Assembly: GCA_029891345.1 (NCBI GenBank)
Contig: CM057003.1
Coordinates: 11,758,709 to 11,822,708 of the forward strand
Source of the DNA: Dryococelus australis
Taxonomy: Eukaryota > Arthropoda > Insecta > Phasmatodea > Phasmatidae
Direction of reading: 5' to 3'
Length of the DNA stretch: 64,000 nucleotides
The position numbers and the translations under genes were made by a program. The notes beneath the pieces are model-generated. The model searched no databases, was not told the DNA's origin, and was given only the letters and a program-made list of their open reading frames with translations. Of the stretch, positions 11,855-55,237 are shown in pieces (the first letter of the stretch is position 1; each line of letters opens with the position of its first letter).

Positions 11855-12125
11855 AATCCGCTAATTTAGGGATTTAGGGTTGTGGAATTTAGGGTGGACG
11901 GATTCGAACGTCACTTTTCCACTGCAGCCCCACTTAACATAGTTATATCCACTGAGCCACTAAGACCCCACTTGATATAGTTCTATCCACTGAGCCACTG
12001 CGGCCCTACTTGGAATCTCGCAATCCACTGAGCCACTAAGGCCCCACTTGATATAGTTCTATCCACTGAGCCACTAAGGCCCCACTTGGAATCGCTCTAT
12101 CCACTGAGTCACTGTGGCCCCACTT
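11855..12125 (-). repeat. Tandem array of 38-bp tRNA-head-like units
   Basis: Five 38-bp units start at 11928, 11966, 12004, 12042 and 12080, with a partial sixth. On the minus strand each contains AGTGGCTCAGTGGATAGA, a close match to the Pol III box A and tRNA D-arm. Downstream on that strand (11905-11915) lies GTTCGAATCC, a box-B match. The whole reads as a tRNA-derived element whose 5' head has been amplified. A second array with the same 38-bp period is at 54868-55237. Transcription is not shown. Confidence 0.9.
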
Positions 12126-12684
12126 AATTAACTCAAGATTAAAGCGAGACATTTAAAGTAAACAAAAATGATATTCCATTACCGTTATTTCTCTATGCAA
12201 TATTCTCTATGCATTAATACAAAACTTTTTATAGGGAAAAAGTAATTTAAAAAATGAGTTTTTAGGATAAAAGGTAATGTTTTCGTAATCTGATCTTGCT
12301 GAAATTCGAACTTGACCTGTATATTACCCTGAGCATTCGCTCTTCAAAATTTGAAGAACTTCGGTTGAGTTTCAAGGGACTTACAGGTATTAAAGACAGA
12401 CAGACAGAGATCGTCTACTTATTATATAGGATACACGGTAATTAAATCATTCTGTTTATAAATAAGTTACTCTCGAGCGTATTTCACGTATTCCTTTTGT
12501 TATTTTATGAACTTAGTAAAAACATATTATTTACATACAATACAACATGGCGAACCTGATTTTATTCCTTTATAACGTACACTTCCACTTTCAACGAATA
12601 GATAACCGTCACTTGTATTTGGCATCAGCCGAAACCAAGGAAATAAAAAGCAAATAAACAACAGCAAACAATCAGACGGAGCTA
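12126..12684. other. Anonymous AT-rich sequence
   Basis: Contains GGACTTACAGGTATTAAAGACAGACAGACAGAG near 12370-12410, a phrase style common in transposon-derived DNA. No gene seen. Confidence 0.4.
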
Positions 12685-12727
12685 TTTGGGGATTCAAAAA
12701 AATTAGACACTAAATCCCCAAATATTT
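12685..12727. repeat. Hairpin
   Basis: TATTTGGGGATT and AAATCCCCAAATA pair around an AT-rich loop of about 16 bases. Confidence 0.8.
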
Positions 12728-12837
12728 AGGGCCTAAACTTTGTCACTTGGTCGCAGTAACCCTAAATAATGGACTCGTAGCGTTTTAGAACACGGCTACC
12801 CTTAAAGACGGTACTCCGAGCACGCTGGAGATCCCAG

Positions 12838-13030
12838 AGTAAATAAGAATACAGAGGTGAAACAGGCGTATATTACAAGACAACAACACGCCGGAACGGA
12901 CCGTTCGCAATTCAGCGTGTGGTAAGTTGCTTGCCCAGCCGACAGGGAACCTTTCGTAACTTGCAGTAGCCAATCAGATACACGGCCCGTTACCGTTCCC
13001 AAAGCCTGGCGCAACCTATCAGTATGGCTG
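12838..13030 (+). repeat. REP-G copy
   Basis: Blocks AATACAGAGGTGAAACAGG, GCAGTAGCCAATCAGATAC, GGCCCGTTACCGTTCCC and GCGCAACCTATCAG match copies near 41.9 and 32.1 kb. Confidence 0.7.
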
Positions 13031-13046
13031 TGCAACATAGGGAATT

Positions 13047-13070
13047 TGATGTCGATTGTAGTCGACATCT
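13047..13070. repeat. Short palindrome in a GTCGA-rich patch
   Basis: GATGTCGA and TCGACATC flank six bases. GTCGA or TCGAC recurs through about 13145. Confidence 0.75.
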
Positions 13071-13189
13071 GTCGCATATCGACAAAAGTCCAACGTGTCG
13101 GTCTCGACGATACCAACGATGGTCTTGACTCTCGACTATGTCGACTTCGACCTGTCAATCATTTGTGTGCACTCAGTGAAACAATCTTC

Positions 13190-13457
13190 TGCGTATGAAC
13201 TATTTATTTTAAGTATTACCAACACACCTATTTTCATACTGTTTTTATTTACCCTAATTATAATTTAAATATTATAATTTGTAGATAAAATGTATGTAAT
13301 AGTAGAATTTAACAAAAATATGTGTTTTCCTGTTAGCAGAAGTATAAAACATTGTTGACACTTGGCATATTCAGGAAACCACCAAACACGTAGTCAATGA
13401 GGTGAATTCTCCAATGTTTGATTCAAAACACGCGAAGAAACCACGAATATACCATAT
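13190..13457 (-). mobile_element. MITE-C partial copy
   Basis: Minus-strand MITE-C left half: GCGTGTTTTGAATCAAACATTGGAGAA-like start, an AT-rich middle, and TAATACTTAAAATAAATAGT at the broken inner end. The end GAAACCACGAATATACCATA is retained; the other terminus is missing. Confidence 0.75.
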
Positions 13458-13900
13458 CTACTGTTTGCCACGGCGCACGCAGTCGGACGGAGCCGCGCGG
13501 CAGTGGACACGAAGTGAGTGGGGTGACCATGCCACCTCCCCTCCCTCTCAATCTTGCAGTCTGCACGGTTACTTGCTCATCCAGCGCATCATGACTCTTC
13601 GCAGACCTTGCGCCGCACGATAAGGGGCGAGCCCCTCCCCCGCCCCCTCGACCTTATTGTAGAGCGAACACACATCGATGCAATTTGACAGGCCGTGCCC
13701 GAACTCCCGGATGCAGCCCGGAGCCCGGTTCCCTGGTCCTACTTCTCCATATCGGGACCACGCTCGCGTGGATGTGTTCGCTCTGTGGTGCTCGCTTGAC
13801 CACACCTGCCGCAGCAGTTAGCTTGCGTTCATGATGAGAGACACGACCCAACTGGCAAGTCGGCGAGCGAGCGAAACGTACCCTCAAATATTACCTTGTA
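13458..13900. other. GC-rich anonymous segment
   Basis: CpG-rich. A pyrimidine tract ending in CAG at 13558 precedes an open stretch, but the frame is short and unsupported. The 77- and 78-codon minus-strand frames are not recognisable. Confidence 0.35.
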
Positions 13901-14700
13901 GTAAACCAACCTTTTTATTATTTTATTAAAACGTCAAACTGCCGCAGCTATAAACATATATTTAAAAAAAAGAATGAACTTTGAAACTTTCAACCATACG
14001 AACACAAAACCTTCTGTAATAAGTTGTTCAAATTCCTCAGCAGTATGCATGTAATAGCGGTCCAGGTCTTACATAACTTTTTCGTCCTTTTCGGCGCATA
14101 GAATTATGACCACCTAAGATAAACATTCATTTGGCGTAGCTTTGTGCCACTTAAGTGTAACTTAGCACTACCCCTTAACGTTGCACTTCCTAGTTTTATT
14201 TATAAGTTAGTAACACAGTAAAGCGGACAGACTCTTTGAACCTTCATTTAAAATCATACCAGACAGGTGGTTCAAAGTTTCCCACGCGCACTGCTGCTAA
14301 GTTATCTAAAATGTCTGTATAGTAAGTTATTAAAAAATTATTTAATTAAAAATTCGCTTAAGTGTTTTCCCGGATTCGGGACTCGCTCGATATTTTCTTA
14401 TTCCGAGACTCAGCTCTCAATGTATTCTGTAGTTTACAATGTTTCCTACATCGGTAGCACAAGCCAGGTGTTATGTACCGCTTCGCACCTAATCAACTGC
14501 ACACAAATATTTTCCAAGTTTTTCTTAACATTTATTTGCAACATGTTAAATAGGGCCCACTCACCAAGGAAAAAACTTCATAAATTGCCCAAGATAAGAT
14601 TGAATATTATATTGTGTGTATATTATAATATATTACGTGTATTTATATTTTGATATGACGCTAACACATAATCTTATCTAATGTATGTTTTTCTGTTTTG
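13901..14700. other. Anonymous AT-rich sequence
   Basis: The 128-codon frame at 14267-14653 is low-complexity and AT-driven, with no motif I recognise. No window-internal repeat found. Confidence 0.4.
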
Positions 14701-14706
14701 TTTCAG

Positions 14707-14755
14707 GTACGTATACACCTACAGGACGCTTCTGTTCTCTGTGGCTATATTGACG
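14707..14755 (+). other. Candidate short exon (weak)
   Basis: A polypyrimidine tract and TTTCAG precede an open stretch reading YVYTYRTLLFSVAILTV in one frame, followed by GTCAGT, a poor donor. The hydrophobic character would suit a membrane segment. It could equally be chance in AT-rich DNA. Confidence 0.12.
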
Positions 14756-14775
14756 GTCAGTATACAAAAGTAACT

Positions 14776-15621
14776 TAAATTACATAAAAGTGTTATTAAG
14801 TAGCAACTAACTTTGAATACGAGTCTAAGATTTTTTCAGGATGATGAGGCTCAATGCTTCCAGATTATACGCCAAAAAACGTTAGTTGTTTTTTTATTAT
14901 TTTTAAGGCAGTTTTTTTAAAAAATATTTTTTTTCGTGTTAAAAGTTATTGAAATCAGTTATTGTGTTGTTCGTTTAAAATTGAAATGCATTCGCACTCT
15001 AAACGAGAAGTAGCGTTTATCGTAGTAGTCTGTAGTCTGCGTTCATAAGTAGCAAGAGCAACCTCGTACAAATGTTTACGCAATACTACATCGTCAGTCG
15101 CCCTTTCCATTGTATGAATGATACGCTGGAGTGCCGTCGGAGACCTAATGGAGAGGAAGGCAGATGTCAGTCACACTTCACCTTGCAGTGATACACCATG
15201 CGTGCACGTGAGGTGGTAACGTCGGACATGTCAACAACCGATTGCGCACTCACCTTCCTTTGTATTCGTGCGTAAGCCGACTCAACTCCAGTCGAGCAGC
15301 AAGCGTCTGTGGACAGTCGTTGCCCAAATATTCATTAAATGCCCTAGGCTAGTTTAAACTGCAAAAGCACTCATTCGACTAGTATAAGGTTAGTTTAGTT
15401 TGGTTAGTTGAGACTATAAAAACGTATTCGCCTACTATCCTAGGTCTGTTTCTGTGGTCCTGTTGGGTTGGAATACTAAATAATAATAATAATGGGTTAA
15501 AAAGCGCATGCCAGTAGTCGTGATGGCCGCTCTCAGACGTAAGTTCAGTAATCATCACAGCGTCGGCGTTCTACAGCCAATTGTGCTGAGTAGAGTTGTA
15601 GTAGAGGTGGGTAGTAGAGTA
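14776..15621. other. Anonymous sequence
   Basis: No gene or window-internal repeat recognised. Confidence 0.4.
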
Positions 15622-15858
15622 TAGGCTGTTCACGGTAAAGTGAGCACTTTTGAAGCCCTAGTTACTTTTTCCTTTCGGCTACTTTTTATCCTTTAACCAC
15701 ATTTTAAAATAATCATTGCTGTATAAGTAATAAATTAAGTGTGTGTTTTCCACCGCACTCGGAAGTAAACTTCTAAGGCTAAAATAAAAATATATTTATT
15801 GACAATTATTCCAACTGAAGGAACTTTCAGAAGTGCTCACTTTAACTTGAACGGCCTA
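15622..15858 (-). mobile_element. MITE-A copy, TA-flanked, inverted
   Basis: Symmetrical ends TATAGGCTGTTCACGG and GGCCTATA include the TA duplication on both sides. The interior is the reverse of the 11597 copy (AGTTACTTTTTCCTTTCGGC, CCACCGCACTCGGAAGT, TATTGACAATTATTCCAAC). 237 bp. Confidence 0.95.
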
Positions 15859-16074
15859 TATCAACCTGTTACTTTGTATTTGATATCGATTTCTAACATG
15901 TACTGTAAACGATTACACTTCAGAAATGTAAGATACGTTTAGTATCATTTTAAAATTCGTCTATGTGTTGCATCTGCAGTTCTATGTGACAGATGCAAGT
16001 TTAACTATAAAAAAAAAAAACAATTCAGTTAAAATTCAGTTTATTGGTTGAAGTATGCAAAGTATAAAATGTAA

Positions 16075-16075
<1 letters not shown>

Positions 16076-16105
<30 letters not shown>

Positions 16106-16107
16106 TT
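16076..16107. repeat. (GT)n(AT)n microsatellite
   Basis: A short GT run continues into about 10 TA units. Confidence 0.95.
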
Positions 16108-16865
16108 ATTTATAAAGTTGGCTATCCTCTATGAAAAAATAATTCTCAAAAATTAAGTATTTTTTCTGCTCTTGATACTGGCTCTGTAATTCATATTTCA
16201 CTATAAAGGCTACCTGTGTGGTACCAACCCAAAACACGTATTTGATAATACGCGTACTTGATAACACGCATACCTGATACCACGTGTACCTGATAACATA
16301 CACCGACGAAGCCACACCAGAGACCTGTAAGAGTAGAGCTGTACTCGGGAAATCCTGTATCAGATGCAGAAAGTTTCATATACTTTGTACCAGATACACT
16401 TCTCTATCAGTTTCAGTTTCAAATAGGAAACGAAAATTGCTGTGGCAACCAATCCCTAAATTATAGTATCCGGCAGACGTCTGGGCACGCCAGTTCCCTC
16501 ATGCTCGCTAGGGCTTAGCCGGTCACGTACCGGTATGTAGATGAGCCGCAACGGCACGGCCCGGGAACGTATGCGCCGTCCCACCAACATCCGCTCTTAA
16601 GTCTTCGGTAACTGCAGTAAGAGTGCACCACGTGATGTTTGTAAGACAGCTAGTAGTTTTTTTAGTGTCGGGCTCGTACAACTTATGCAATTTGCCCTAC
16701 ACGCATGATCGCACAGCCTTATTCTCGAGGCGTTGAACGCCGCAACTTTGAATACAATTAAACGATATCAAAATACGTTTCCGGATATAAGTGTACAGGG
16801 CTTTTGTGTTTCTATTGGTCCACAGAAACTATGTGTGGAGTTTGGCTACTGATTTGCCAAACATT
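16108..16865. other. Anonymous sequence
   Basis: Contains an imperfect tandem of a GATAATACGCGTACTT-like word (16242-16298). No gene seen. Confidence 0.4.
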
Positions 16866-17182
16866 GTGTATATTTAACGGGAACACTGTCGGCCGAGCGC
16901 ACAGTAAACTCCTTTAACGACGGAAAAAGAATAGTTCCATGTCCTAACGTTGAACTGGATGTGCTAGAAAAACATTTGTGAATACAGAAATCATTAAAGT
17001 GTAATAATTAGCACATTTGTAAAATATTTACTTTCCTAACAATTTCACTATTTCACTTGACTGGCGCATAAATTAAGTAATCAGTACCATAGTAAAGTTA
17101 ATTTTTACACACAGTAGAAGAATACACAGCGTGCATACAATTAGAGCTTTCGAAAGAACTCAGTTTAACCATGTGCGACCTA
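16866..17182 (-). mobile_element. MITE-B copy, left end missing
   Basis: Inverted MITE-B interior (GTGTCCTAACGTTGAAC-like, TTTCACTTGACTGGCGCATA, GAAGAATACACAGCGTGCAT) ends in a worn terminus GAACTCAGTTTAACCATGTG followed by CGACCTATA. Confidence 0.75.
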
Positions 17183-18554
17183 TAAACGGCACTTAAACCA
17201 TCAATAGCCATCTGTTGAAACGTACATATAGTTTTTATTATTTGATGTCTTACGCTGAACTGGGTCTGATGTCAGCAAAATCGGGGTACCTAATCGTCCC
17301 GCACAGTACACAGCTGCGTAATACTTGTGCATTATTTATTTCTGAATAACACGCGAAGCTACCATGCGCTGGTGTTCTTCGTCAACAATTGCAACCCTCT
17401 CGAAGAATTGCAGCCAGCGTTGCTTACACTGTAGTTAAATAGGAATACGATTCTCGTCTCCTGCAGCCGCGTCAACTGCTGTTCTCACGCCCTGCATTTC
17501 TGCGCCATAGCTCCTTGCGACAAGCCTAATAATAGGTCGGGCCAATAGTTTTCTTAGCGGCATGGAATGCGCGTTGAGTTATAAACGCTGGGTTCCTGAT
17601 CTCACAAAATAAAATCAAAATTTTGCTTGAAAGTGCAAATAAGCCACAACATTCGTAAAATTCCTTCTTCTACTACCTGGTAAAAACAGCTGCACCTTGC
17701 TTTTAACGCGATGTTTAAATAAGAATCACGTTAGTTCCGTAGAACAATCAAAAATTGGTTGACAACGTGACACATTCAACGTATTCATAATATAATTTTA
17801 CCAATTTGTTTTGTTGTAAAAATCTGATGGTCGTATTTTGTATACTAATTTTTTAGTCTAATAAATTTTAGGGCGAAGATTTGAGCAAGGACTTGAGGGA
17901 CAGCGCAGCGAACAAAAGCTTGCACGTGATTGCACTCCGGACAACCGGGTTTCTCAGGAAACGGAACAACGCCGAAAATATCTAACGTATCACGGCTCTT
18001 CGCCTCGTACGACTCGTTCGTAGCACTTTTACAGCTCGTAATTTTGAGAAGCCGACGAAGATATTATTTAATTTTTATTCTGGCGTGAATATATTATTTT
18101 TTTTCCAAATACATATAGGAATTGCGAATATTTAGACTTGTGGCTTGACGGGAATAAATTAGAAGTACTTTTCAACACGCGAAGTTTCGTTTCTGTTCTG
18201 AGTAATTCTTTATATTGCCAGCATTGCGGTACGTGTAGTTTAAGGGGGGGGGGGTTGCGTTTAAATTATCCTTAGAAAATAAAATGAAATGGTCAATATA
18301 ATATATAAGTCGCCTAGGATCTGTGCTGCATTTTACAGTGTGTCTTTTAGCTAATCCGCAGGATAAAAAAAAATATCTTATGTAGAATCCAATTTGTTAC
18401 TTAAAAAAAAAAAACTTTATGAAAGTTGTTCCAGTCAAGGTAGAGTGGATAACATATCACAGCTTGTAAAATATATTTTTACATGTTTTTTTAAATTTAA
18501 TTTTTTAGGTTTTTTAATGCACCCAAACATTAGCAAGACCTTAATACGAGAACA
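17183..18554. other. Anonymous sequence, no gene seen
   Basis: AT-rich with a poly-G run at 18244-18253 and an A run near 18402. No reading frame of note and no repeat seen elsewhere in the window. Confidence 0.45.
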
Positions 18555-18715
18555 TTATACATTGAGGACTGGGGAAGGAATCGGCCATTCTAGCATTCGC
18601 CTAGAGTGACTTTGGAAACCCCTGGATTCAGGATAGTTGTAACAGGACTATAATCCAGGGTCGTCTCGGATGCGAGTGCTTTATTTCGCCACAGCACCAC
18701 CTCGCTCACTTCTGT
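18555..18715 (-). repeat. SINE-2 copy with internal hairpin
   Basis: Body block TTCTAGCATTCGCCTAGAG and head block GTCGTCTCGGATGCGAGTGC match the copy at 63288-63460. Where that copy has the box-B region, this one has a perfect-arm hairpin: CCCTGGATT and AATCCAGGG outside, ATAGT and ACTAT inside. Confidence 0.6.
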
Positions 18716-20367
18716 TTCAAACTAACAAAGGACTCTTTATTTTTAAAGTGAATTATCAAAAAAGATGAGAAAAAATAACTAAAAAAATACTTAAGCTAAT
18801 GTAACGGCCTTTTTATAAAAGTTTTCAGAATTTATTTTTCTGCCAAATGGGGCGTGAGGGTTGTAACGCAAAGAGCGTGTATTATTCATATCACTTGTAA
18901 AGTAGAATGTCCATTCGTTAACTACTTTGACTTAGCTAACTTCCTTGAGAGCACTGAGCCAGTTTATCTTCTCCAGATGTTCCGGCGAAGTAATTCTCGT
19001 GGTAACCGAGGCTGATTTATAAACTGGACCCCGATTGACTCCATTGAACAGCTCGAGTAACCAGGCGTAGTGTAGTTCACTAACAAAGATATCGACCGCT
19101 TATTCACTTGATGTGTCGCGACTTCCGCTTATGAATTATGACGCCCCTCGAGCCTTTATTGCCGTTATTCGCAGCGCTTTCGTGTTTTCTCTTTCAGATC
19201 TAGTTTTTTTTTCCTTTCTGAAGGAGTTATTTCATGCAGGCAAACACAGTGCACGCGGTAATACAATTAAGTTACGCGAGGAAGTTGAAAACCAGTTTCC
19301 AACTGGTTATTTTATGATATGTTGGAAAAAGAAAACAATTTCTTTGAATCGCCACACTGAAGTTGAAGTGTTTGAAAACCTAACGTTTGCCATTACATTG
19401 ATAGAGAGAGAACACCAATGTATACCTCCCTATTTCGATATATTTAATGTAAAATATTGAGAACAATTTTCATATCCGACTTCCAGTTTTTCACATCGCT
19501 CGATTCAATCGATCGCAGCTATTTCTTGTGTTTTATATTAAGGTCAGCTATACTCCCGTGATTATAAATCGCTCTTTCTTGCAGTACCAAAAAAATTAAC
19601 TCACATCAAATACTTACATTACATTACGTTTACGAAGGCAATGCCCATTGCTATTGCCTCGTACGGTTATCTGTATGACACTTTTTAATTACAAAAATTC
19701 GCTGCTTTTTGTCTATGAAATTCGAGGTTTGTTTAAAATGATTTATGACGCGGATAAACAACTACTAACTAAAAGACAAACATAAATTATTTGAGTAGTA
19801 CAAACTAAGCAGTATTCATGATCAAGAAAAAAATCGTGCCAACCAAAAAGAATAGTGTTTAACATTCCTGTACTGGCTGTGTTGGCCATGTATAGATAAC
19901 AGTATAACAAACCATTGAATGACAAAGCGAATATTCTTAACAAAAGACCACAAAATATTTTTCATGTAGACCTACAAACAAAACTTTTATGCTTAACTAG
20001 TCAAGCAAGAAATCGTTGTGAAGATGAAAAGTGCACGTCAGAAAGTAAAGGGATGATTTTAAAAAACAGCTACTCAAACTGTATGCATAAAATATATATA
20101 TATATATATTAAAATAAAGTTTTTGACTGGTGCTTTTGACCGTGCATGAGGTAGGACGAACTAAAACTTGATATTCCAGGTTTTATTTACCCATGGATAT
20201 TCAGATATTAAGGTGCATTAGCTTGAACTACACAATATAACATTAGTTATAATATAAATACAAGATTAATATTTACAAAATTACACATGCTAGTATCATG
20301 AAGTTCTTATATAAAATATATATTTTATTTAACGCCACAAAGTATTGTGTTAATTAGAAGTTAATTC

Positions 20368-20371
<4 letters not shown>
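18716..20371. other. Anonymous sequence, no gene seen
   Basis: The longest frame (115 codons, 19113-19460, plus) has no recognisable motif. An (AT)n run lies at 20091-20109. Confidence 0.45.

Positions 20372-20450
<79 letters not shown>
20372..20450. repeat. Compound (TA)n(GA)n microsatellite
   Basis: About 49 bases of TA followed by 15 GA units. Confidence 0.97.
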
Positions 20451-20453
<3 letters not shown>

Positions 20454-20522
20454 TGTCCTTTAAAGAACTGCCTTCAAAGTTAGGAATTTTCGCATAAAGA
20501 ACGTATAACGTAATAACTCATA

Positions 20523-20928
20523 TAGGCTGTTCACGGTAAAATGAGCACTTTTGAAAGCGTGTGCACGTTGTGTATTCCTCCGGCTTATGTAAAATTACTT
20601 TGCTCTGGGTCCCATCACTTTATTCATGCGTCTGTCAGGTGAAACTGTTAAATTATTAGAAAAATAAATATTTTTCAAAACTGCTATCGTTTTTATACTG
20701 CAATACATTAGATAAAATAGAAAACGAAAGAAATAGTTTAAGTTATCAGAAATGGTCACCTAACACTTTTTATGCGACTGTAAAAGATATGTAACTACGT
20801 TTCATCCATCGTTACCGACTTTACTGGGCGCATGTCACTCAATGCGCCCGTTAAAATAAATGCAGGTAGGGGCAGTGACGTTTTCTAAGGTTGATTTCAA
20901 AAGTGCTCACTTTATCGTGATGAGCCTT
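20523..20928 (+). mobile_element. MITE-B copy, TA-flanked
   Basis: TATAGGCTGTTCACGGTAAA at left and TTTATCGTGATGAGCCTTTA at right include the flanking TA. The interior carries TTTATTCATGCGTCTGTCAG, CTTTACTGGGCGCATGTCAC and GCAGGTAGGGGCAGTGACG. 406 bp, non-coding. Confidence 0.95.
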
Positions 20929-20932
20929 TACA

Positions 20933-21684
20933 CATAATTGCTGTCTCTCAAAGGAATAAGTTCTACAGGAATTTTTCAGGTGTCTAACTAGGGCGGTCGG
21001 CAAATTCGGGCAGTCTCTTTTCATCGCCAGGCTATAGTTGTCCACGTAAATTTGGCGACGTATTTGCTAAGTGTTACGCTCATATGTAGAAGAGTTCGGA
21101 CCAGTGTTAGTTCGCATCCAACTTCTTAAATAAATAATTTTTGAACGTCAAGTTTTGTTTTTATCGGCACGTGAATTAATCGTAGATTCACATCCACAGT
21201 TACTGCATACAGCCCACAATATTTGCCCGCTAGTTTCAGTATATGCGACTAGGCCTATCCAAAATGCGACCTTCAATTTCCCGAATTTATTTATCTAATA
21301 GGCCTCAAAACTGTTTCAATCCAAGAAAACTCAAAACTTTCCTTCTACCCGTGGCTCGATCTTCCGAGACTTCTCCTTTGCGAAATATCATTCCTCACAA
21401 GTTTGACTTATCTTTCTTCTTGCAATACTACCAATTCACCTATTTCGTCCTCTCCTGCGTGAAGCTATCATTTCAGTAATGTTGTCAGTTTGGAAATATT
21501 CTCATACATTCACAATACTTTTTCTTTTTTTTTTTATTCAGTGGAGGTATATTGGATGTTTCCCTCGATATTCGCATATCTTTGACCTCCATTTGGTGCT
21601 GGGTACGTTTTGTTTGACTTCGCTCCTCCGCTTAGTCTTACTACAGTTATATATATATTCTCGCTTTAGTAACCCCGCTATAGA
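20933..21684. other. Anonymous sequence
   Basis: Two adjacent short plus-strand frames (21243-21479 and 21479-21697) are pyrimidine-rich and unrecognisable. No repeat found. Confidence 0.4.
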
Positions 21685-22277: not shown

Positions 22278-22337
22278 GTAACCATACCCACGAATTCATT
22301 CCCCACTGGAATTTTTATTCAAATTAACCGTGGGTGA

Positions 22338-23762: not shown

Positions 23763-23780
23763 TCTGTGTGTGTGTGTGTG

Positions 23781-23839: not shown

Positions 23840-23840
<1 letters not shown>

Positions 23841-31703: not shown

Positions 31704-31955
31704 TAAGGTCACGGTGGCTAAGCGGTTAGCCTGCTCATCTCCCACCTAGGCGATCCGGGTTCAATCCCCGACCGGGTCTCTCCGAATTTTCGCATGTGGG
31801 ATTCGTACTGGACTATGTCGTTGGTCGGCGGGTTTTCTCGAGGATCTCCCCGTTTCCCCTGCCCTTTATTCCGGCGCTGCTCCATACTCACCTCAATCAC
31901 CCTCATTGGCTCTCAAGACCTCGATGTTAAGAGCCGTCCAAATTTCTTCTTCCTT
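31704..31955 (+). repeat. SINE-1, full-length copy
   Basis: The plus-strand head has box A (GTGGCTAAGCGG) and box B (GGGTTCAATCCCC), then the body (CGTTGGTCGGCGGGTTTTCT, CACCCTCATTGGCTCTCAAG) and tail GATGTTAAGAGCCGTCC with CTTCTTCCTT after it. Confidence 0.93.
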
Positions 31956-32298: not shown

Positions 32299-32539
32299 TA
32301 GGCTATTCACTGTAAAATGAGCACTTTTGAAAGCCCTCTTTATTTGTAATAATAATCACTGTATAAGCTATATTTTATTTTACCCTTGGATGTTAACTTC
32401 CGAGTACGGTGAATATACAAACTGTGTTTATTACTTACATGGCAATACTTATTCTAAAAAGATCGTTAAAGGATAAAACGTGGCTGAAAGAAAAAAGTAA
32501 CTAGTCCTGAAAAGTGCTCACTTTACCGCGAACAGACTA
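32299..32539 (+). mobile_element. MITE-A copy whose right end seeded a satellite
   Basis: Starts TAGGCTATTCACTGTAAAAT. Interior GTTAACTTCCGAGTACGGTG and CTGTGTTTATTACTTACATG. The right end CTCACTTTACCGCGAACAGA falls in the first unit of the 60-bp array. Confidence 0.95.
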
Positions 32540-32805
32540 TATCACCAATATGGCCGGTTAGAATGCCTGAAAAGTGCTCACTTTACCGCGAACAGACTAT
32601 ATCACCAATATGGCCGGTTAGAATGCCTGAAAAGTGCTCACTTTACCGCGAACAGACTATATCACCAATATGGCCGGTTAGAATGCCTGAAAAGTGCTCA
32701 CTTTACCGCGAACAGACTATATCACCAATATGGCCGGTTAGAATGCCTGAAAAGTGCTCACTTTACCGCGAACAGACTATATCACCAATATGGCCGGTTA
32801 GAATG
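32506..32805 (+). repeat. 60-bp tandem repeat, 5 units, made of MITE-A end plus flank
   Basis: Five identical 60-bp units start at 32506, 32566, 32626, 32686 and 32746. Each holds the last ~34 bases of MITE-A (CCTGAAAAGTGCTCACTTTA onward) plus ~26 bases of flank (TCACCAATATGGCCGGTTAG and beyond). Because 60 is a multiple of 3, an 87-codon frame with 20-residue repeats exists; I regard it as a by-product. Confidence 0.98.
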
Positions 32806-32826
32806 TCTGAAAAAGATTCATTCTGA

Positions 32827-44272: not shown

Positions 44273-44554
44273 ACCCCACCGACCCCACCGGCCCCACCGA
44301 CCCCACCGGCCTCACCGACCCCACCGGCCCCACCGACCCCACCGGCCCCACCGGCCTCACCGGCCCCACCGACCCCACCGGCCCCACCGACCCCACCGGC
44401 CCCACCGACCCCACCGACCCCACCGACCCCACCGGCCCCACCGACCCCACCGACCCCACCGGCCCCACCGACCCCACCGGCCCCACCGACCCCACCGACC
44501 CCACCGACCCCACCGGCCCCACCGGCCCCACCGACCCCACCGGCCCCACCGACC
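44273..44554 (+). repeat. 9-bp GC-rich minisatellite
   Basis: About 31 units of CCCCACCGR, with A and G at the last position giving an irregular binary pattern. Every frame is open through it (His-Arg-Pro, Pro-Ala-Pro-Thr, Gly-Arg-Trp repeats), explaining the 94-167-codon frames. The minus strand has regular GGGG blocks with G-quadruplex potential. Confidence 0.98.
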
Positions 44555-44937
44555 CTGCTTAAGATCTACTGATATGAACGTTGTGTATTCTTCCGTCCTA
44601 TGTATAATTTTCATTGCCATGGGTCTCACCACTTTATTCATGCTTCGGTCAAATGAAACTGTGAAATTACTAGAAAAGAAAATATTTTACAAATCTACTA
44701 ATATTTACATCTCGATGCATTAAAAAAAGAAACAAGCCGCTAAAGACACAATTTAAGTTATCACCTGGCACTTTTTATTCGACGTTAAGATATGGAACTA
44801 CATCCCATCCATCGTTACCAACTTTACCGTGAGCATGTCACTCAGTGTGCCCGTTAAAATATATGCAGGCAGGGTCAGTGACTATTTTCTAAGGTTGATT
44901 TCAAAAGTGCTCACTTTATCGCGAACAGGCTTTACCA
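44553..44937 (+). mobile_element. MITE-B copy whose left end is replaced by the minisatellite
   Basis: The element starts at CCCTGCTTAAGATCTACT, about 35 bases in from the normal terminus, immediately after the minisatellite. The right end TTTATCGCGAACAGGC precedes TTTA. All other blocks are present. Confidence 0.92.
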
Positions 44938-45142
44938 GCAGAGGGGGGGGGGGGCGATGTCACGGAGATAGCGGAAGCCAACCAGAGTTCACCAGCAATC
45001 TGAACTACCACACGAACTACCATCACGCGCTGTCGCTTTGAATTTGCCGCAAACACACTGGCATATTCGCTGACTCGTACGCGGCTAAGCCTTCAATTTG
45101 TAGGGCTTCCTTTCGCACGAACTAGGGAAGATATATGGTAAG

Positions 45143-45441: not shown

Positions 45442-45613
45442 ATGATAAGGAATAAATTAGCCGAAGGCAAAATTCTAAGACCTCGCACAATACGAAGGTA
45501 CCAGGTACATGAAGAGCCTTCCGAACCGTTACACAGTCAATCAGCAAGCGAGAAACGTCTTCATCAAACGAACCGTCATATTATTTATATTCCACGTATG
45601 TCATCATCGCTTA

Positions 45614-45941
45614 AAGACTGTTCACGATAAAGTGAGCACTTTAGAAATGAACCTCAGACAAATAATACTACCCCTGCATGCATATATTTTAATGGGTACA
45701 CTGAGTGACATTTACCGAGTAAAGTTGGTAAAGATGGATGGGAAGTAGTTGCACATCTTGCAGATTTATAAGGTATTTACTTTCTTCATAATTTCACAGT
45801 TTCATGTGACCGACGCATAAATAAAGTGATGAGGCCCACAGAAATGTTAATTTTACATAAGGCGAAAAAAATACACAATGTGTCCATAAGTAGATCTTAG
45901 GCAGGGCTTTCAAAAGTGGTCATTTTACAGTGAACAGTCCA
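45614..45941 (-). mobile_element. MITE-B copy with internal deletion, TA-flanked
   Basis: AAGACTGTTCACGATAAAGT follows TA and TTTTACAGTGAACAGTCC precedes ATA. About 90 bp of interior are missing after GGGAAGTAGTTGCACATCTT. Confidence 0.92.
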
Positions 45942-46204
45942 TAGCTGCGTTTACTTATTAGGTCCTTTTTTACATGCGTAAATTAAATTTTTGCGCTATT
46001 TTTCCGTATTTACAATTTGCCTATTGTTATTTCATACCATTGACATTGTTTATGTATGGAACAACATCGACGTGCAACTTGATGCAAAGTTAGAGGAAAG
46101 GTGGAAAGTAAACGTCACAGAGAGCCACTACTCCTTTTCGACAGCTGCTGCCTGTTGGTAGATTTCCCGCCACATTCCTAAAATACCCGCTCACCAATCT
46201 GCAA
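45942..46204. other. Anonymous sequence
   Basis: Nothing recognised. Confidence 0.35.
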
Positions 46205-46209
46205 TTCAA

Positions 46210-46880
46210 CCTTGCCTCTATCACACTGTCAAATTTTCGTCTTCATCTGTATTTGACAAAACAAATTTGAAGATAAAATACGGACATCAAATTTCTGCTT
46301 CCAACAAATTTTATCAAATAATCTTGAATGTGTTTGAAAATATGTCACACTGTCAATTTTTTTTACTGAGAGAATCTAATTTGAATTATTTTTAAAAAAT
46401 TATTTTTATAATGAGAGATTGCTTGTGTTTTTCCATGCAGTCCATTACAGTAAGAAATTTAAGGAATGCTGTAATTAATTTCGTTTTTTTACTAAATCCA
46501 AATATTATTTATCAGAGATGTTTCCTGCACAATGAAATTTAATGTCTCTCTTACAATAGCATTTATGCCCTGACACCTCCTACATAAATTAATTGTCTTC
46601 ATAACCTACTTCGTTTCCAGCAACTATTCGTTTTTTTAAAGTTCCTTGACGTCAATTTTTGTCGTGCACGATTCTGATTGGCCGAGACCGTCAAATATCA
46701 AATAAAGTTTAGAACCAGTCCAATTTTAAAACGTTTTGTGGAAACTGAAGCCATTCAACTGTTTCAGACAAAAATGACGTCGTTTTATGACGTTTCGATG
46801 ACGTCATAACTGTCCAACTTTTTTTGACCAAACTTATTGGAAGAAGTGTGACGGAAAAATTTGACAGAGTGACAGGGGTT
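46210..46880 (+). mobile_element. TIR-K copy 1, ~670-bp TIR element
   Basis: The left end TATCACACTGTCAAATTTTC and the inverted right end TGTCACTCTGTCAAATTTTT give TIRs of about 27 bases. An inverted cognate occupies 53935-54580 (shared: ATTATTTATCAGAGATGTTT, TTCATAACCTACTTCGTTTC, GATTGGCCGAGACC). No coding frame. Superfamily not assigned. Confidence 0.85.
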
Positions 46881-47056
46881 TAAGGAATACTTGTAGGCCG
46901 CCATAGAAACAACTGCTTGTTTTGGCAATTGCTGCTTCCTTTCGTCTCCAGTCTAATGAAAACGTCTTAATTTGGTACTCAATTTTCCGTCGAATTTTTA
47001 ATTATTTTATTTCCTTTGTTTTGGGGCACTTCACATATACTTATCACTCTCGCACA

Positions 47057-47468
47057 TAGACTGTTCACGGTCAAATGAGCTTTTTTGAAATCAACCTTTG
47101 GAAAATGTAACTGCTCCTACGTGCATGTTTTTTTAACGGCAACATTGGCTGACATGCGCACAGTAAAGTTGGTAACGCAGGGGGTATAATAGATTAATGT
47201 CTAAACGTTGAATTGAAATGGCTAAGTACGCATTTGTGAATACAGAAACGCTTTATTTTCCTTTCAGTTTTTTTTTTTTTTTTTTTTTTTTATGAATGTA
47301 AGTTTGAGAATTAGAAAATCTGTAAATTATTTATTTTTGTAATTATTTCACTGTTTAACTTGACGGACCGCGACGTTAATTTTAATTATTGCGGAAGAAT
47401 ACACAACTTGCACACAAGTAGATCTCAGTCAAGGTTTCACAAGTGCTCAGTTTGATATGAACAACCTA
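47057..47468 (-). mobile_element. MITE-B copy, diverged
   Basis: GACTGTTCACGGTCAAATGA at left and AGTTTGATATGAACAACCTA at right. Inverted interior with a T-tract of 25 at 47268-47292. Confidence 0.88.
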
Positions 47469-48553
47469 TAGATCTGTTCAATGTAACAATAAACTGTTCT
47501 GCTAAAACGCGTCTCCTCAATTTCCTACTAGTAAACATTTTACGAATCAGCAATAGCCATTTCGCATGCCACTCTGCTTCAATACATGTGTCTGTCACTT
47601 CCAGTCTTCCTAGAACGAAATTATATTTCTACTCATGTCTGGAGTATTCATCGCCCCGTGTTTTCTGTTAGTCAGTTGAGCTCGCATACTCGTAAACTAT
47701 TTTTAATACATAGCGTTAATTTCTTCCACTTTGAAAACACTAATTAAACATTCCAAGGAAATTACAACTTTTTCTTAATGGTTATTACGGATGCAAGAAT
47801 TTTAACACGCTCTCAGTTGTGATTTGTATTTAATATTTTTTGTGCCTCAGCATTAACTTGTCTCCCATAAAATACAGCTTGTTATATTAAATTTCAAAAT
47901 AACTGCATCCAGATGACGGGTTTTATCTTTATTGCTGGTTACGTTTGATAGGTATACATGTGAAAATGCCTCTCATCATAACATTATACTTAAACTAGAT
48001 TTTGAAATATGTCTTTTCTGAGTGTATCGTAACACAGTAGACTACATGCCTTCGTTTATAATAAATACTTCTCACACTATAATTTGAAACAAGTCTGATC
48101 CCATAAATAAGGTAAAACGGGTTACAGCAGATAAATATGCATATTGTAAATTTGCTTTTGAGAACTTGCAAGTAACCTACATACAATACATTATTCATAA
48201 ATAGCCGGAATAATTTTTTGATGTAATACGTGAAAAGATTTCAGCTTACTTAAAAAAAAAAAAAATATATTGCATGCTCCAGCAGATTCTTTCTTGCTGC
48301 AATTATGTAGCAAAAAAAAAATACGCTAAGGATAACAATATAATTTTTAAAATATTTTCGAAATAAAGGTGACATTTCCTATAAGAAACGAAAAAGAATA
48401 TTTATGAAAGGAAACACTAGCAATTTGTAACATTCATGGCAGTCGCTGTAATAACAAAAAAAAACATAAAGTATATTAATTCTCTAAGAGACTTTAAATC
48501 CCTTTTAATTTCGGCTTGGAAGGGAAATTTTCTCTTTTGATTAGTAAGAGAAA

Positions 48554-48558
<5 letters not shown>
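47469..48558. other. Anonymous AT-rich sequence, no gene seen
   Basis: No frame above 67 codons and no window-internal repeat. Confidence 0.45.

Positions 48559-48602
<44 letters not shown>
48559..48602. repeat. (AT)n microsatellite
   Basis: About 22 AT units. Confidence 0.97.
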
Positions 48603-48606
<4 letters not shown>

Positions 48607-50480
48607 TGTGGCGATGGCTAGAAATATAACCTTTGGTAGAACTTCTTTTATTTTGTTTACTTCACACACACGTAATGAATAACATCGTTTGCAGATCCAA
48701 GCACTATTTTAAGGTAGTATTTCTAAAGTGGCACTCCACTGCAAGTAGAGATTGTATCCGTTGTATATACTAAAGTATTTTGGGTTCTGTCTTCTGTCGT
48801 CTTGCTGGATAAAATTTCGCCGGTAAGTGTGGCTTTTTCACTATCATGAAAATATGCAGGTGTCAAGTGCTAAGCTCTTTCCGTCGTGTTTTAAGGACAG
48901 GTAAACAGCCAGCTCCACAGCAAACAACCAAGGGACTTACAAATGGCCTGCGTCATCGCAACTGATTACTTCATTTCTCACTCACTAAGAGGACTTTCCG
49001 CAACGTACGGCTACTATTTTTTCTGACAGAACCTTTAAAAAATTTCACATTGTAGCTTGCCCTGCGCTTTAAGAACGTATATCCCGACAGAATCAGGCAA
49101 AGCATATTTCGAAACCTGGGCTTTCTGTTCTCATGGAGATCTAGGAATGTACTAAAAAGGAAGAAATACGCATGTTTACGACTGAAATTTGTGGTGCGTC
49201 GACAGTTGCTATAAACTGTTGGTATTATTGTTGGTTGCTGTGATAAACAAATTGTGCCCGTGTCGCAACTCCACACATACGGCTTCAACTTGACTTGTGT
49301 TGCTGTGTTTCATTTGATTGCAAATCGCGTACGATTCTGTTAGTCCTTCATTTTACTTGACACGTTTTGGAGGATTACCAAAACAATAATACTTGATGAG
49401 ATCAAGCGGAGGAATATGTGATTCCCTAACATTTTTGAGGTATATACAGTTGTGGATGTTTCAGCGTGCTAAGTATCTACTGAGTACATTACATGTGCTG
49501 GTATAATTACGTTGTAGAATGATTGTATTCAGGCAGGTCATCTTCAGTTATACTTGCGAGGCCCCTCTGAGTGGCCAAGATCACTTGCTGTAATCGTATA
49601 CTGCTTGGTGTGCGCGAATATTTGACCCCGATGTTGGAAAGTTAGCTTTTCAAGACCTACATGACCGTTTTTATGATGTCATTGTTTTCGAAGGCTATAA
49701 AAACGAATATTATTGCGATAGTTTCAATAAACATTCGTATGAAGATATGGCTGTGCGCCTGCAAGTGAAAGGTTGCTTAGGCAAAGTAATTTCTTAGAAA
49801 TAAACGTATTTTGTTTTTTTTCAAGAGTAGTGGAGGCTACACGGCTCTATTGGGAATGCGAAAGGAGACCTGCAAATAAAAGGAAACGGTTCGACGAACC
49901 TGAAATAATATATATATTTCATCAGATAGTAGCAGGTCGTCTATTTCTATAGCAGATATGTTCCAAGGGACCTGCATCACAAGTGTTCGCTGTGGCTGAC
50001 CCATGTGATGTAAATCCGGCACTTCGACATCTCCTTGTGCAGAAGATCACAATGAACATTCTATCTCAGAAACGCACAGTAGAAGGAAAAAAGAGGAGTT
50101 GGGCACATTGGTATCCGGAATCAGAACTCGGAACTGTTCATGCTCTGTCATTCCGGTCCCCCGGCGGCCATTTTTCCTTCAAAATATTCCTTTTCCCCCT
50201 CAAAATCGATTACATTTCCCCTGAAATTGTTTCTTTTCCCTCAAAATTTCCCGTTTTTCCCTTAAAAAAGAACCGATCCCCCCCAGCTGCAAAAACGATC
50301 CCCCGAAAGGCACTTTTCGATCCCCCATACGAGTTTGGGGTGATTGTTTTCGAGGGCAGAGCAGTGGTGGCCATATTGGTTTATAGGCATAGGATATGCC
50401 AAATAGATACACGGGATCCAGAATTGAAGCCGAAGCCGACCGTCAGCCATCTTGGTTCTGTCAGCCATTTTAACCATGTT
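48603..50480. other. Anonymous sequence with a 169-codon frame
   Basis: The plus frame 49983-50492 is among the three longest in the window. Its C-terminal half is rich in Phe-Pro-Leu-Lys repeats from TTTCCCCTCAAAAT-like short repeats (50170-50300), which suggests sequence repetition, not protein constraint. No domain recognised. The 105-codon minus frame at 48971-49288 is also unrecognised. Confidence 0.4.
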
Positions 50481-51250
50481 GGATGTCGGTGACCTTAACC
50501 CCAGTGACCTTTGACCCTGAACCGAAAAATTCCCAAAAAAATCTCAAAAAAATTCCAAAAAATTCTTAAATACTCAAAGAAAATTATTTAAAAAATAATT
50601 TTTAAAAGTTATAATATTAAAATTTTAAATGCTCAGGGTAGGTGGGGACGAAGGACTGGAACCGACCAGCCACCATGTTATGACGTCATCCAACCACCAT
50701 ATTGGATCCAGGTGACCTTGATCCTATAACCATGCTGGATGAACTTGAAAACAAAAACACGAGAAAAATGGTAAAAATTTAATAAATTTATAAGTCAGTG
50801 AGCATATTACAATACTGACTACTACCGCCATCTTGGATATAGGTGACCTTGACCTTTGGCCTTAAGCCGGTGACCTTTGACCTCGAACACAAAAGTTCGT
50901 AAAATTCCCAAAAATTTCCTAAGAATTTATATAAAAAATAAATATATTATAAGTTATTTTCTAAAATTATTTTTAAAAACTTATGTTTCCGGAGGTGTCT
51001 ACAGCACCATGTCCAGCAGACGGCTGACACCCCTCCCCCCTTTTCCAGCCAATCACATTGTATTAAAATTCCCCTCCGCTTCCCAATCACTTTTGCTCAT
51101 TCTGTTGAATGCCCTCCATCCACCATATTGGTTTTTCGTTTCTCATTTGTTTACATTTTCAACAAATAGATGGCACTGATGATTTCAACCATCATTTTAT
51201 GTCTGGATTACCTTCACCTTGACCTCACATCTGTGACCTTGACCCCGTGC
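50440..51250 (+). promoter_or_regulatory. Cluster of TGACCTTGA / DR1 sites with CCATNTTGG words
   Basis: TGACCTTTGACCT, a perfect direct repeat with one-base spacer, lies at 50871-50883, and a near match (TGACCTTTGACCC) at 50505-50517. TGACCTTGA, an extended nuclear-receptor half-site, occurs near 50713, 50844 and 51234. Each group sits near a CCATATTGG, CCATCTTGG or CCATGTTGG word. The arrangement resembles a degenerate tandem repeat with a unit of roughly 170-330 bases. Function as an enhancer is inference. Confidence 0.4.
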
Positions 51251-53543
51251 CCATGATCTTGGATAACCCTGCACCCAACAATGAATTCTAAAAACTTTTA
51301 TATAATCTAAAAAATTCCATAATAGGCAGCGTTATGATAGCAGAATAGAGGTGAAGTGATTAGGGAGGTTTCAAAAATAAATGACGGCTGTCGCACAAGT
51401 GGAACTGGAATACACTGTATTAAATTTTGCGCAAATATGCCACATACTGAGAAATACGAGTAGTAAAGTTTTTTTCCCCATGCATGTATTTGCAGCCTGA
51501 TGTATGGCAAATATATTATGATCTATACAGGTAAAAAAAAAAAACTTCCCTTATAGTTTACGAAGTTTCCCAAAAAAAAAAATTCTGCTGGCGGAGTACA
51601 TTTCGATTAATTGCGAGTTGCACGTGAGTCGATATTGCGCCGAGGAGGATGTGGCAACCCGACACTTGACGTCCATCTCTAGAGCGGACGTATCGTATCG
51701 CCTTATCCCTGGCACCCTGACCCTGGGAACTGGGCCAGATCATCCACCGCATTCCATCCGAGGGTGTAAGTTTCACGGCGGCCATAAACCTGCCGCTGGC
51801 TTCGCACATGTGGGCCGCGTCTTCCGAACACACAGTACATCCCTAGCGGAATCACCGCCGAAGCATAGTGTTCATGTAAGGAAGTAGTGACGTCGAGAAA
51901 AATATCGATATGTATGGCGTCGTACTGGTTAATAATTCATCGTAAAGTATTGTAATACTTGCCGCAGTTATTAAAATAAATAGACTTTATTCAACACAAT
52001 ACCTGTGAAAATATGAGATTTGTAGTTCATTTTAAAAAATAAAAGAAAGCTAACATTGATCGATGTTCGAATTCGTATTATCCACTTGGTAACCGGACAC
52101 GCTACCAATCGCGCTAATACAACACATGATTAATTAAGCTCAATAAGTGATATATACATTGTACACAGATGATGCGTCTTGCGTTGTTTCTAATGGTGGA
52201 GGTTTTTAAAACATGTCGTGCATATTACACAGTATTCTTGCCGTCATTACAATGCAAAAATGCAATATTCTTGCAAAATAACTTAAACAAGTAGGTTGCC
52301 TTATTTTTAAATAAAATAATTACATCAAAGCGTATAATGGTCTGGACGCGTCAAATCGTTTATGAACGTTCGTCAAGCTGCCGGCTCCGGTATAATGATA
52401 TGCGTACTGAGCATGCGTAGGTTTGGTTTGCGCCAAGGATAAATCAGCGATATCGGTGCGCTAGGATCAACGCTTCGGTTGTGGCTTATCTAGGCCCTTA
52501 TCTGCCACTATAACGTTCTGGAATACCGGCATTACACTTTTTAACTGCATAATAGTTACAGCGCAATGAATTTGGTGGAGAGCGGGCTGTTGTTAACTTT
52601 TCTTGCGATGACTCACATTTCCTACTGGAAAATCAGCGACGATTCGTCTTTTTTTTTTTTTTTTTTTTTTTTCCGCCAAGGGCAGCTAGTGGCATGCAGC
52701 TGAAACTGCCTTAACGACAGGCTTTGACTGGACCCTGTTTACTCTTCTTTATCGCATGCAACTTCTTTCATTTCTCTATACCTTCTTTAGTTTTTCACAT
52801 TATCATGAATTCCAAAATTTCTTCTTCCCTTACTTTCTTTTCATTTATGTGTCTTTCTATTATTCTCTGCTACAGACAATTTTCACATATTGTATACTGT
52901 TACTAAAAATGTTATTTTCTTTCTTATTACTTCTAAAGTTTTTCTTTTCCAGATGAACTCCGGGAACTAAAAGCTTTATTCTACGTAAATTAAAGCTGCC
53001 TTAAGAAATTAAGCCACTGAAAACGGCGGGAGTTTGCACGTTGATCTATTGACCGCGTCACACTGTTTTGTTACGTAACTTCTGCTGATTTACAATGAGT
53101 AAGGACACTGGCGTCAATGCAGTTGACTGACACAGTGTCTATAGCCCAGCTTTGCTGATTCAAACCTCTGATTCGCCTTTAGAGAGCGAGTGCGGGGGGT
53201 CAGATACGGAAATGGCAGGCAGCGAGAAAGTATTAAAAAAATAAAATACGCCACCTACAAAGTGCCTGGCTTATTTCAGCGGTAATTTAAATTTACTCTG
53301 ACATCCAGCAAACCAAATAGAACAGTTTTTCTGTAATTTCACAAAAGAAAAACACTTGTTGAAATTTGCTGTAACTTGTAAAGTACATTTTTGATAAAGG
53401 AAGAATTTCTCATTTGTTTATGAAAATAATGTTATTTAAAAAAAAATTATTCACCGAGATTATGAAACCGCCACGTTGTGGATGTGTTTGTAAGGGACAG
53501 ACGGGCCGATAAGAGAGATTTCCACATACATAAGGTATGACTA
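51251..53543. other. Anonymous sequence, no gene seen
   Basis: Poly-A/T runs at 51533-51544 and 52650-52671. Frames at 51558-51887 on both strands overlie a GC-richer patch and are unrecognised. 52724-52956 is T-rich and compositional. Confidence 0.4.
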
Positions 53544-53781
53544 AAGGCTGTTCACGGTAAAGTGAGCATTTTTGAGGCTCCAGCTACTTTTTCCTTTCAG
53601 CAATTTCCTAAACTTTAAACCACCTTTATAGAATAAATAGTGCCATGTAAGTAATAAACACATTGCGTATATTCCACCGCACTCGGAATTTAACGTCTAC
53701 CGCTAAAATAAAATATATTTACTGACTATTATTCCAACCGAGTGAGCTTTCAAAAGTGCTCACATTACCGTGAACAGCATA
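53544..53781 (-). mobile_element. MITE-A copy, TA-flanked
   Basis: AAGGCTGTTCACGGTAAAGT follows TA and ACATTACCGTGAACAGCAT precedes ATA. Inverted interior (CTACTTTTTCCTTTCAGC, CCACCGCACTCGGAATTTAA). 238 bp. Confidence 0.95.
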
Positions 53782-53934
53782 TAACTACATTCGTCGGTGT
53801 AAGCCGCCACGCATAAGTCACGTGTTACAGCTACGGAAATAACACGCGGGTTGCGGTGACATGAGCGCTCTGATCGTTTGTCTTGAGATGCAGAGTGATC
53901 AGCAGACTAGTGCCGTGATGTAAACGTAAAGCCC

Positions 53935-54580
53935 CTGGCACACCGTCTCAAAATTTTCCCCTCAAACTGCTTCCGATAACTTTGGCCAAATAAAGTTGGG
54001 CTGTCATGACGTCGTCAAAATGTCATAAACGTCGCCATTTTGGACGGCTTCAGTTCCCGTCAAACATCTGAAGATTGGACCGGTTCTAAAATTCCTTTAA
54101 TGTTTGCCGGTCTCGGCCAATCACAATCGTGTACGACGAAAATGGGAGTCAAGATACTTTAAAATAACGAAGAATTGTTGGAAACGAAGTACATTATGAA
54201 GCTAATTAATTAATGTAGAAGCTGCCTGGGTTGGAATGCTATTTTAAGTGAATGCTGCACGTAGTATTGCAAATTCAAAGGGATTAAATTGCATTGTGCA
54301 GGAAACATCTCTGATAAATAAAATTTGAATTTAGTGAAAAAGCGAAAATAAACTACAACATTTCTTACATTTATTTCCTGTTATGGATTTCGTGGAAAAA
54401 CAAAAACTATATCCCACTACGAAAATAATTTTAATATAATAATTCAAATTATAGCCTCCCAGTAAAAATATTTGACAGTGTGAAACATCTTCAAACACAT
54501 TCAAGATTATTGGATGACATTTTTTGGAAAGAAAAAATTTGATGGCCGTATTTTGTCTTCAAATTTCATTGTCAAGCTAG
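53935..54580 (-). mobile_element. TIR-K copy 2, one end worn
   Basis: Reverse orientation of 46210-46880: CCCCTGGCACACCGTCTCAA, GGTCTCGGCCAATCACAATC, AACATCTCTGATAAATAAA, CAGTGTGAAACATCTTCAAA. The far end (CAAATTTCATTGTCAAG) is diverged and passes into other sequence. Confidence 0.85.
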
Positions 54581-54867
54581 CTTTTACCCGTGGCTCTGCT
54601 CGCGTGTTTATAAGGGATAAATAATGAAGTTTTTTGACACTAAGCCTCGTCGTGTTAAATAATCGCGGTGCATCTAAATTTCGATGACATGATATTTTTG
54701 CAAATTTATTAAAACAAAGCTCATCATAATTTCATTAAGGTTTTATGTTTAAAATATTAATGTTTTTCCTTTCAGGTTTAACGGAGTTATTAAATTACAC
54801 CCTGCCATCGCTTCGCACATGTTTTATGTTAGCATGATATTTAGGACTTTGAATTTATGTAGCCACT
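54581..54867. other. Anonymous sequence
   Basis: Begins CTAGCTTTTACCCGTGGCTC, a phrase I associate with old insect mobile-element ends; the element is not delimited. Confidence 0.35.
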
Positions 54868-55102
54868 TTTTTAAATTGGGTTCTATAGCCTCTGGCCGGC
54901 TGCGGCCCCACTATTGGGTGTTCTAGCCACTGAGCTACCGTGGCCCCACTATTGGGTTATATACCCACTGAGCTACTGTGGCCCCACTATTGGATGATCT
55001 AGCCCCTGACAAGCTGCGGCCCCACTATTGGGTTCTCTAGCCTCTGAGCTACTGTGGCCTCCTTTTTGGGTGTTCTAGCCACTGAGCTATTGTGACCCCA
55101 CT

Positions 55103-55184
<82 letters not shown>

Positions 55185-55237
55185 TCTGAGTTACTGCGGC
55201 CCCACTTGGAATAACGCTAGCAACTGGACCACTAAGT
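54868..55237 (-). repeat. Second 38-bp tRNA-head-like array
   Basis: 38-bp units start at 54868 (worn), 54906, 54944, 54982, 55020, 55058, 55096 and 55200. On the minus strand intact units read GGTAGCTCAGTGGCTAGAAC, an excellent box-A/D-arm match, then CCAATAGTGGGGCC. The 55096 unit is split by (AT)n. No box B is evident beside it. The period and the TGGGGCC junction are those of the 11.9-kb array. Confidence 0.9.
55105..55182. repeat. (AT)n microsatellite inside the array
   Basis: 39 AT units within one 38-bp unit, grown from its GATATA-like sequence. Confidence 0.97.

Follow-up and report, generated by a model that had tools for sequence, protein, structure and literature searches.

Tandem 38-bp arrays in Dryococelus australis, very probably a minisatellite inside short non-autonomous Helitrons

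Introduction

Two tandem arrays of a 38-bp unit bearing an A-box-like motif, found in a 64,000-nucleotide stretch of Dryococelus australis DNA (hereafter the window), very probably make up the minisatellite inside short, non-autonomous rolling-circle DNA transposons of the Helitron type. Since both arrays form the internal repeat of Helitrons that are scattered through the genome, they look like the baggage of a mobile element rather than a novel tRNA gene. In the consulted sections of the genome report, the D. australis genome is given as 3.42 Gb in 17 large scaffolds, with most of its repeats unclassified (PMC10268593), and one family of 38-bp arrays found widely across it is accounted for by our reading.

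A canonical Helitron, as set out in the consulted sections of one account, begins with 5′ TC, ends with 3′ CTRR and inserts between A and T without a target-site duplication; it carries a palindrome of 16–20 nt about 11 bp from its 3′ end and has an autonomous Rep/helicase partner with the same ends (PMC4067079). Tandem repeats at the centre of non-autonomous rolling-circle elements are described, in the parts of the sources used here, from oysters (PMC7492417; PMC8268682) and from Drosophila and other insects (PMC4067079).

The 38-bp arrays in the window

Array 1 is called by TRF with a period of 38 at 11927–12128 (5.3 copies, score 239) and array 2 with the same period at 54900–55102 (5.3 copies, score 250), the latter with an alternative call of 76 bp at 54875–55102. 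When the window was dinucleotide-shuffled 20 times, TRF produced four rows in total, none with a period of 30–46 or a score of at least 200, and the two arrays are therefore not due to chance. A unit HMM, trained on 11 of the window's own units, recovers 12 copies, all on the minus strand, five in array 1 and seven in array 2, with the next match at E = 0.63. The first-pass annotation had described tandem 38-bp box-A units in one orientation at 11.9 and 54.9 kb, and on this TRF and the HMM agree, placing them on the minus strand; what it could not show is that both lie inside transposons and are not isolated (Table 1).

On the box-A strand the unit approximates AGTGGGGCCGCAGTGGCTCAGTGGATAGAGCGATTCCA, a form found exactly in 4 of 460 sampled units. 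Within the window TGGCTCAGTGG occurs four times in array 1, and TAGCTCAGTGG three times exactly in array 2 (55089, 54975 and 54937), with TAGCTCAGAGG at 55051. The unit ends in ATATATATAT in 11 of the 460 sampled units, which may be compared with the (AT)39 microsatellite of array 2.

Table 1. Positions in the window of the two arrays, their carriers and associated features
Feature	Position	Strand	Remarks
Unrelated dispersed repeat adjoining array 1	11838..11918	-	Holds box-B-like GTTCGAATCC (11909-11900)
Array 1	11919..12124	-	Five complete units of 38 bp, then 16 bp of a partial one (11934-11919)
Class A non-autonomous Helitron holding array 1	11919..12431	-	5′ TC at 12431; 3′ part lost
Empty site for the Helitron of array 2	46198..46341	+	Another copy of the host repeat, unbroken over A|T at 46252/46253
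Class C non-autonomous Helitron carrying array 2	54577..55519	-	943 bp; TC at 55519, CTAG ends at 54577
Array 2	54875..55243	-	About eight units of 38 bp; the first (start 55243) decayed, another split by a microsatellite
(AT)39 microsatellite	55105..55182	-	Within the tail of one array-2 unit

Dispersal of the unit across the genome

The 16-bp core of the unit, GTGGCTCAGTGGATAG, has 6,919 exact matches in the 3.415-Gb assembly (3,438 and 3,481 on the two strands), and its reversed control has none. All 58 genomic loci behind the first 100 of these matches were read, a sample which an exact 16-mer drew from the initial 43 Mb of a single scaffold and which is thus not random; with the two window arrays they make up the 60 loci considered below. 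Among the same 100 matches, 30 of the 42 successive same-strand spacings under 1 kb differ from a multiple of 38 by at most one base. At least two units are present in 58 of the 60 loci, each locus has 1–28 units (median 6.5), and successive units are spaced by exactly 38 in 325 of 400 instances. A genome-wide search for 38-bp box-A arrays had been proposed in the first-pass annotation, whose refutation test had as its genomic half that no other such arrays exist; the arrays proved to be dispersed across the genome, so that this half of the test fails.

Neighbouring units are no more alike (mean identity 0.747) than units taken from different class A loci (0.747; classes are defined below), from which it follows that most of the diversity is older than the spread of the copies. 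The heterogeneous arrays have probably spread as blocks, to judge from the sequences. An exception is locus L020, with 27 units and a higher-order period near 144 bp (38+38+38+30), which is a local expansion. Such local amplification is what would be expected of an ordinary minisatellite, born by slippage at each locus and near transposons by chance, but this account is extremely unlikely, given the equal identity of neighbouring and distant units, flanks that are common to loci and stop at transposon termini, and the existence of empty sites.

Helitron ends, insertion sites and backbone classes

By their flanks, 42 of the 60 loci fall into class A, eight into class B, five into class C and two into class E only (L047 and L048), these assignments being made with reference flanks from ten classified loci (L022, L035, L043, L047, L048, L057, L059, L060, L062 and W2) which match by construction and which include both class-E-only loci; Helitron backbones are counted apart from class E. 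The other three loci have no class: L031 and L032 match no flank class, and L055 begins inside its array.

Class A elements start with TCCTATATAATAAGTAGACGATCTCTGTCTGTC and continue for about 300 bp to the units, which are followed in most copies by about 100–230 bp ending in a hairpin and CTAG. The array-1 element keeps about 300 bases of this 5′ part, and across the window and the loci read 53 alignments were obtained with its 5′ flank, self included, the non-self alignments among the 25 listed being 84–89% identical. The 5′ TC is present in the array-1 element, in the array-2 element and at most class A left ends, and the 3′ CTRR takes the form of CTAG in the array-2 element and in classes A, B and C, the array-1 element being without its 3′ end. 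With patterns that left out the terminal bases themselves, TC was found at 23 of 35 class A left ends and CTAG at 21 of 30 right ends; 12 left ends thus had no TC at the expected place and nine right ends no CTAG, and in five of 40 class A loci the pattern without TC found no left end. Folding of the class A 3′ end gives hairpins of -19.9 (L043), -16.8 (L059) and -11.7 kcal/mol (L034), with 8, 5 and 7 bases between stem and terminus; the hairpin of L029 is less clean. Beyond the CTAG of L017 there is an inverted copy of about 17 bases found near the end of the element.

In the 24 class A loci with both ends recognised, A precedes TC in 21 and T follows CTAG in 21, the flanking A and T having lain outside the end-search pattern; when L039, L044 and L059, which occupy one common site, are counted once, the A|T context stands at 19 of 22 on each side. 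The joined host flanks of these three loci, used as an empty-site pattern, have 317 matches in the genome with at most one mismatch, and the reversed control has none. These element-free host sites indicate that the class A element there was inserted between A and T with no duplication. The left flank of L036 is the same as that of L039, L044 and L059, and all four seem, from their flanks, to be one old insertion that was copied along with its host repeat.

Array 2 lies in a class C element whose right end, ...GGTAAAAGCTAG, is common to L041, L053 and L060, to which its left part aligns too; the CTAG end is found also in the class C loci L041 and L060. The window itself holds an empty site for this insertion: the joined outer flanks of the element align locally and without a break to a second copy of the host repeat (Table 1), again with no duplication. 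The first host base 3′ of CTAG is C beside the element and T in the empty copy, and the C is taken as a later change. The 3′ hairpin is weak in the array-2 element (-3.4 kcal/mol), as it is in class C. Class B has a third type of 3′ end, CGAAGCGGGC...ACAGCTAGT, seen with its CTAG in L035 and L057, and a pattern that opens with the last seven bases of a unit remnant and continues into this 3′ end has 180 matches in the genome with up to three mismatches (control, none).

Mean unit identity between classes is 0.68–0.71, against 0.747 within A, 0.723 within B and 0.665 within C, and so at least three backbones share one family of units. For these unit statistics, as for the bracket count below, class A comprises 40 loci, L026 and L058 being left out despite a class A flank. 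Locus L058, counted in class A by its flanks, joins a left flank of class C to a class A right end and has two arrays, with unit starts 336 bp apart; it looks like the product of recombination between two elements within the array. A second short repeat, similar to GTCGCAAGTAGTCACGGGTA, follows the 38-bp array in the 3′ flanks of L047, L048 and L052.

The array within its backbone

In class A the array is flanked by a direct repeat of the backbone, 22–29 bp long by eye, which we call the bracket. Its 17-base core, allowing three errors, lies on both sides of the array in 28 of the 40 class A loci, on the left only in 11 and on the right only in one, and the reversed-pattern controls gave 0 and 0. 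A bracket of this kind resembles a target-site duplication and would suit an array that is mobile in its own right and uses Helitrons as insertion sites, as would the one locus (L124) among 12 read in which the backbone is array-free and uninterrupted. We consider such a mobile array improbable, however, as the bracket is one-sided in 12 of the 40 class A loci, two subfamilies differ in their left junctions (11 of the 12 loci read for array-free elements against the commoner type), and recombination between repeat copies also leaves an element without an array. A count of 218 pattern matches was rejected as a measure of array-free precursors, because in 11 of the 12 loci read the array merely starts slightly later.

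The observations which underlie our preferred reading, in which the array is an internal minisatellite of Helitrons, are the Helitron ends, the insertion between A and T, the shared flanks and a number of units that varies between two conserved flanks. We propose that the Rep/helicase of autonomous Helitrons in the same genome would copy the element in trans as single-stranded DNA and that the 38-bp array would move in it as a passenger block, its number of units being altered by slippage or unequal exchange. Capture or template switching probably carried the unit among three or more Helitron backbones. The bracket may be what remains of a template switch by which the array was captured, and an array-free element such as L124 would follow from recombination between the two copies of the bracket.

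A potential source of the enzyme is abundant, with the Helitron Rep domain (PF14214) scoring above cut-off at all 150 of the places scored among 1,453 candidates. The unit and the class A ends are absent from the 30 Rep loci read, of about 3.5 kb each among these 1,453 candidates, and likewise from 9-kb versions of two of them. A 3′ end within four edits of that of class B is present at the Rep loci L065, L073 and L094, L094 being the long version of L067. Against our reading stand this lack of class A ends at the Rep loci, the weak class C hairpin, the C that follows CTAG in the array-2 element, the lost 3′ end of the array-1 element, the imperfect ends of many copies and the loci that fit no flank class.

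tRNA likeness and the question of a Pol III promoter

The first-pass annotation had likened the unit to the 5′ head of a tRNA, and here the comparison with the tRNAs of the genome goes some way with it. The best score, gapped and over the first 28 tRNA bases, is 17 against 20 tRNAs, taken from the 45 tRNA matches listed, and 2,000 shuffles of the unit, which keep base composition only, have a mean of 9.8 and a best of 18, with a fraction of 0.0015 reaching 17; the test is flattered, as the unit was picked for its resemblance to tRNA. Against the same tRNAs the reverse-complement unit scores 8 and the reversed unit 9. The likeness as read from sequence is suggestive, and the unit may derive from a captured tRNA 5′ head. 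A more specific proposal, that a captured head was spread over at least three backbones for some benefit, for example as binding sites for TFIIIC or Rep, is one we hold to be unlikely; if true, rolling-circle transposons would share a transferable cis-module.

Only 99 of 460 units keep all four pairs of the D-stem, which is not conserved. Mean information is 1.37 bits in the box-A columns (14–24), compared with 1.41 in columns 1–9 and 0.97 in columns 25–38; box A is kept no better than columns 1–9, which argues against any special constraint on it. The unit sequence gives no sign of Pol III promoter function. Within the window ARAGORN found no tRNA, and no Rfam model reached the gathering score.

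Array 1 had been said to end at a box-B match, and array 2 to be without one. The second statement holds, the sole B-box match near an array being that of array 1; of the first, the match stands but its attribution does not, since it lies in a different repeat (Table 1). A genome search with the junction sequence, in which the unit remnant takes up positions 1–16, yielded 165 candidates; 40 matches were scored, and apart from array 1 itself all 39 start at query positions 9–27, 38 of them at 20 or later. The 80-base junction repeat thus recurs without the array, and it is to this separate repeat that the array-1 box B belongs. Genome-wide, there are no exact cores followed by GTTCGANTC at 20–50 bases downstream, the pattern being strict enough to miss the mutated last unit of array 1 itself.

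These results bear on the earlier proposal that the arrays are the amplified head of a tRNA-derived SINE, in which several A boxes would act on a single B box and tRNA-half-like RNAs would be made. The tRNA score, matched by so few shuffles, and the good box A matches in the units speak for it, as does the existence of SINE-derived satellites in reptiles, reported in the consulted parts of one study (PMC10702118). It is nevertheless highly unlikely, since the flanks of the arrays are Helitron ends, no core is followed by a box B, the only box B at hand is in the neighbouring repeat and the D-stem is so seldom intact. A SINE carrier of the unit is rejected on the two box-B searches, and the target-site duplications of a tRNA-SINE were sought in vain, whole elements ending in TC...CTAG without duplication. 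A true tRNA-derived SINE does occur in the window, in contrast to the arrays with both A and B boxes, in copies at 31709 (+) and 770 (-). Near the copy at 770 an antisense ORF (610–984) contains RPGIEPG and could pass for a protein.

Other repeats in the window

Three further tandem repeats were observed. At 32506–32813 there are five near-identical 60-bp copies (99% matches) which have the GTGCTCACTTTACCGCG end of a dispersed repeat of about 245 bp, itself present at 11592–11834, 15611–15860 and 53542–53786; this tandem array may have developed from a MITE-like end. A perfect 37-bp repeat at 1015–1203 (5.1 copies) is probably young, as its copies are 100% identical. Finally, the 9-bp repeat ACCCCACCG is present in 31 copies at 44273–44555, with open frames on both strands that read as HRPHRP.. 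and GPVGSV.. repeats.

Comparison with known systems

In the literature listings searched we found no description of these elements, Repbase and the repeat library of the genome's authors lying outside the comparison. They belong to a type of element already known, here with canonical Helitron ends and a tRNA-head-like 38-bp unit. The family provides an example of one minisatellite common to different Helitron backbones with canonical ends, and it is also a caution that A-box-like motifs in repeats call for an analysis of their carrier before they are interpreted in terms of Pol III.

Three systems are close enough to be compared, each on the basis of the consulted sections of the papers cited. 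The SINE-derived satellites of squamates are likewise built from a tandem unit that can include tRNA-head-like sequence; however, they come from known SINEs and the snake unit includes box B, neither of which was found here (PMC10702118). The non-autonomous Cg_HINE Helentrons of Crassostrea gigas, with their central satellite-like repeats, likewise enclose a short tandem array between two conserved flanks and occur genome-wide; related and unrelated combinations of flank and repeat, and copies with one flank, are found there as they are here, and several have a GTCY-type microsatellite in the left flank, where class A has GTCTGTCTGTCC (PMC7492417; PMC8268682). The unit described here differs from theirs in being 38 bp long and tRNA-head-like. 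Compared by ends and site, HINEs prefer oligo-T sites, whereas our elements have TC...CTAG ends and insert at A|T; subterminal inverted repeats are described for HINEs. The DINE-1 or HINE elements of Drosophila and other insects are likewise high-copy, non-autonomous and rolling-circle, some with tandem repeats, but they have Helentron ends, whereas the elements of D. australis have the ends of canonical Helitrons (PMC4067079).
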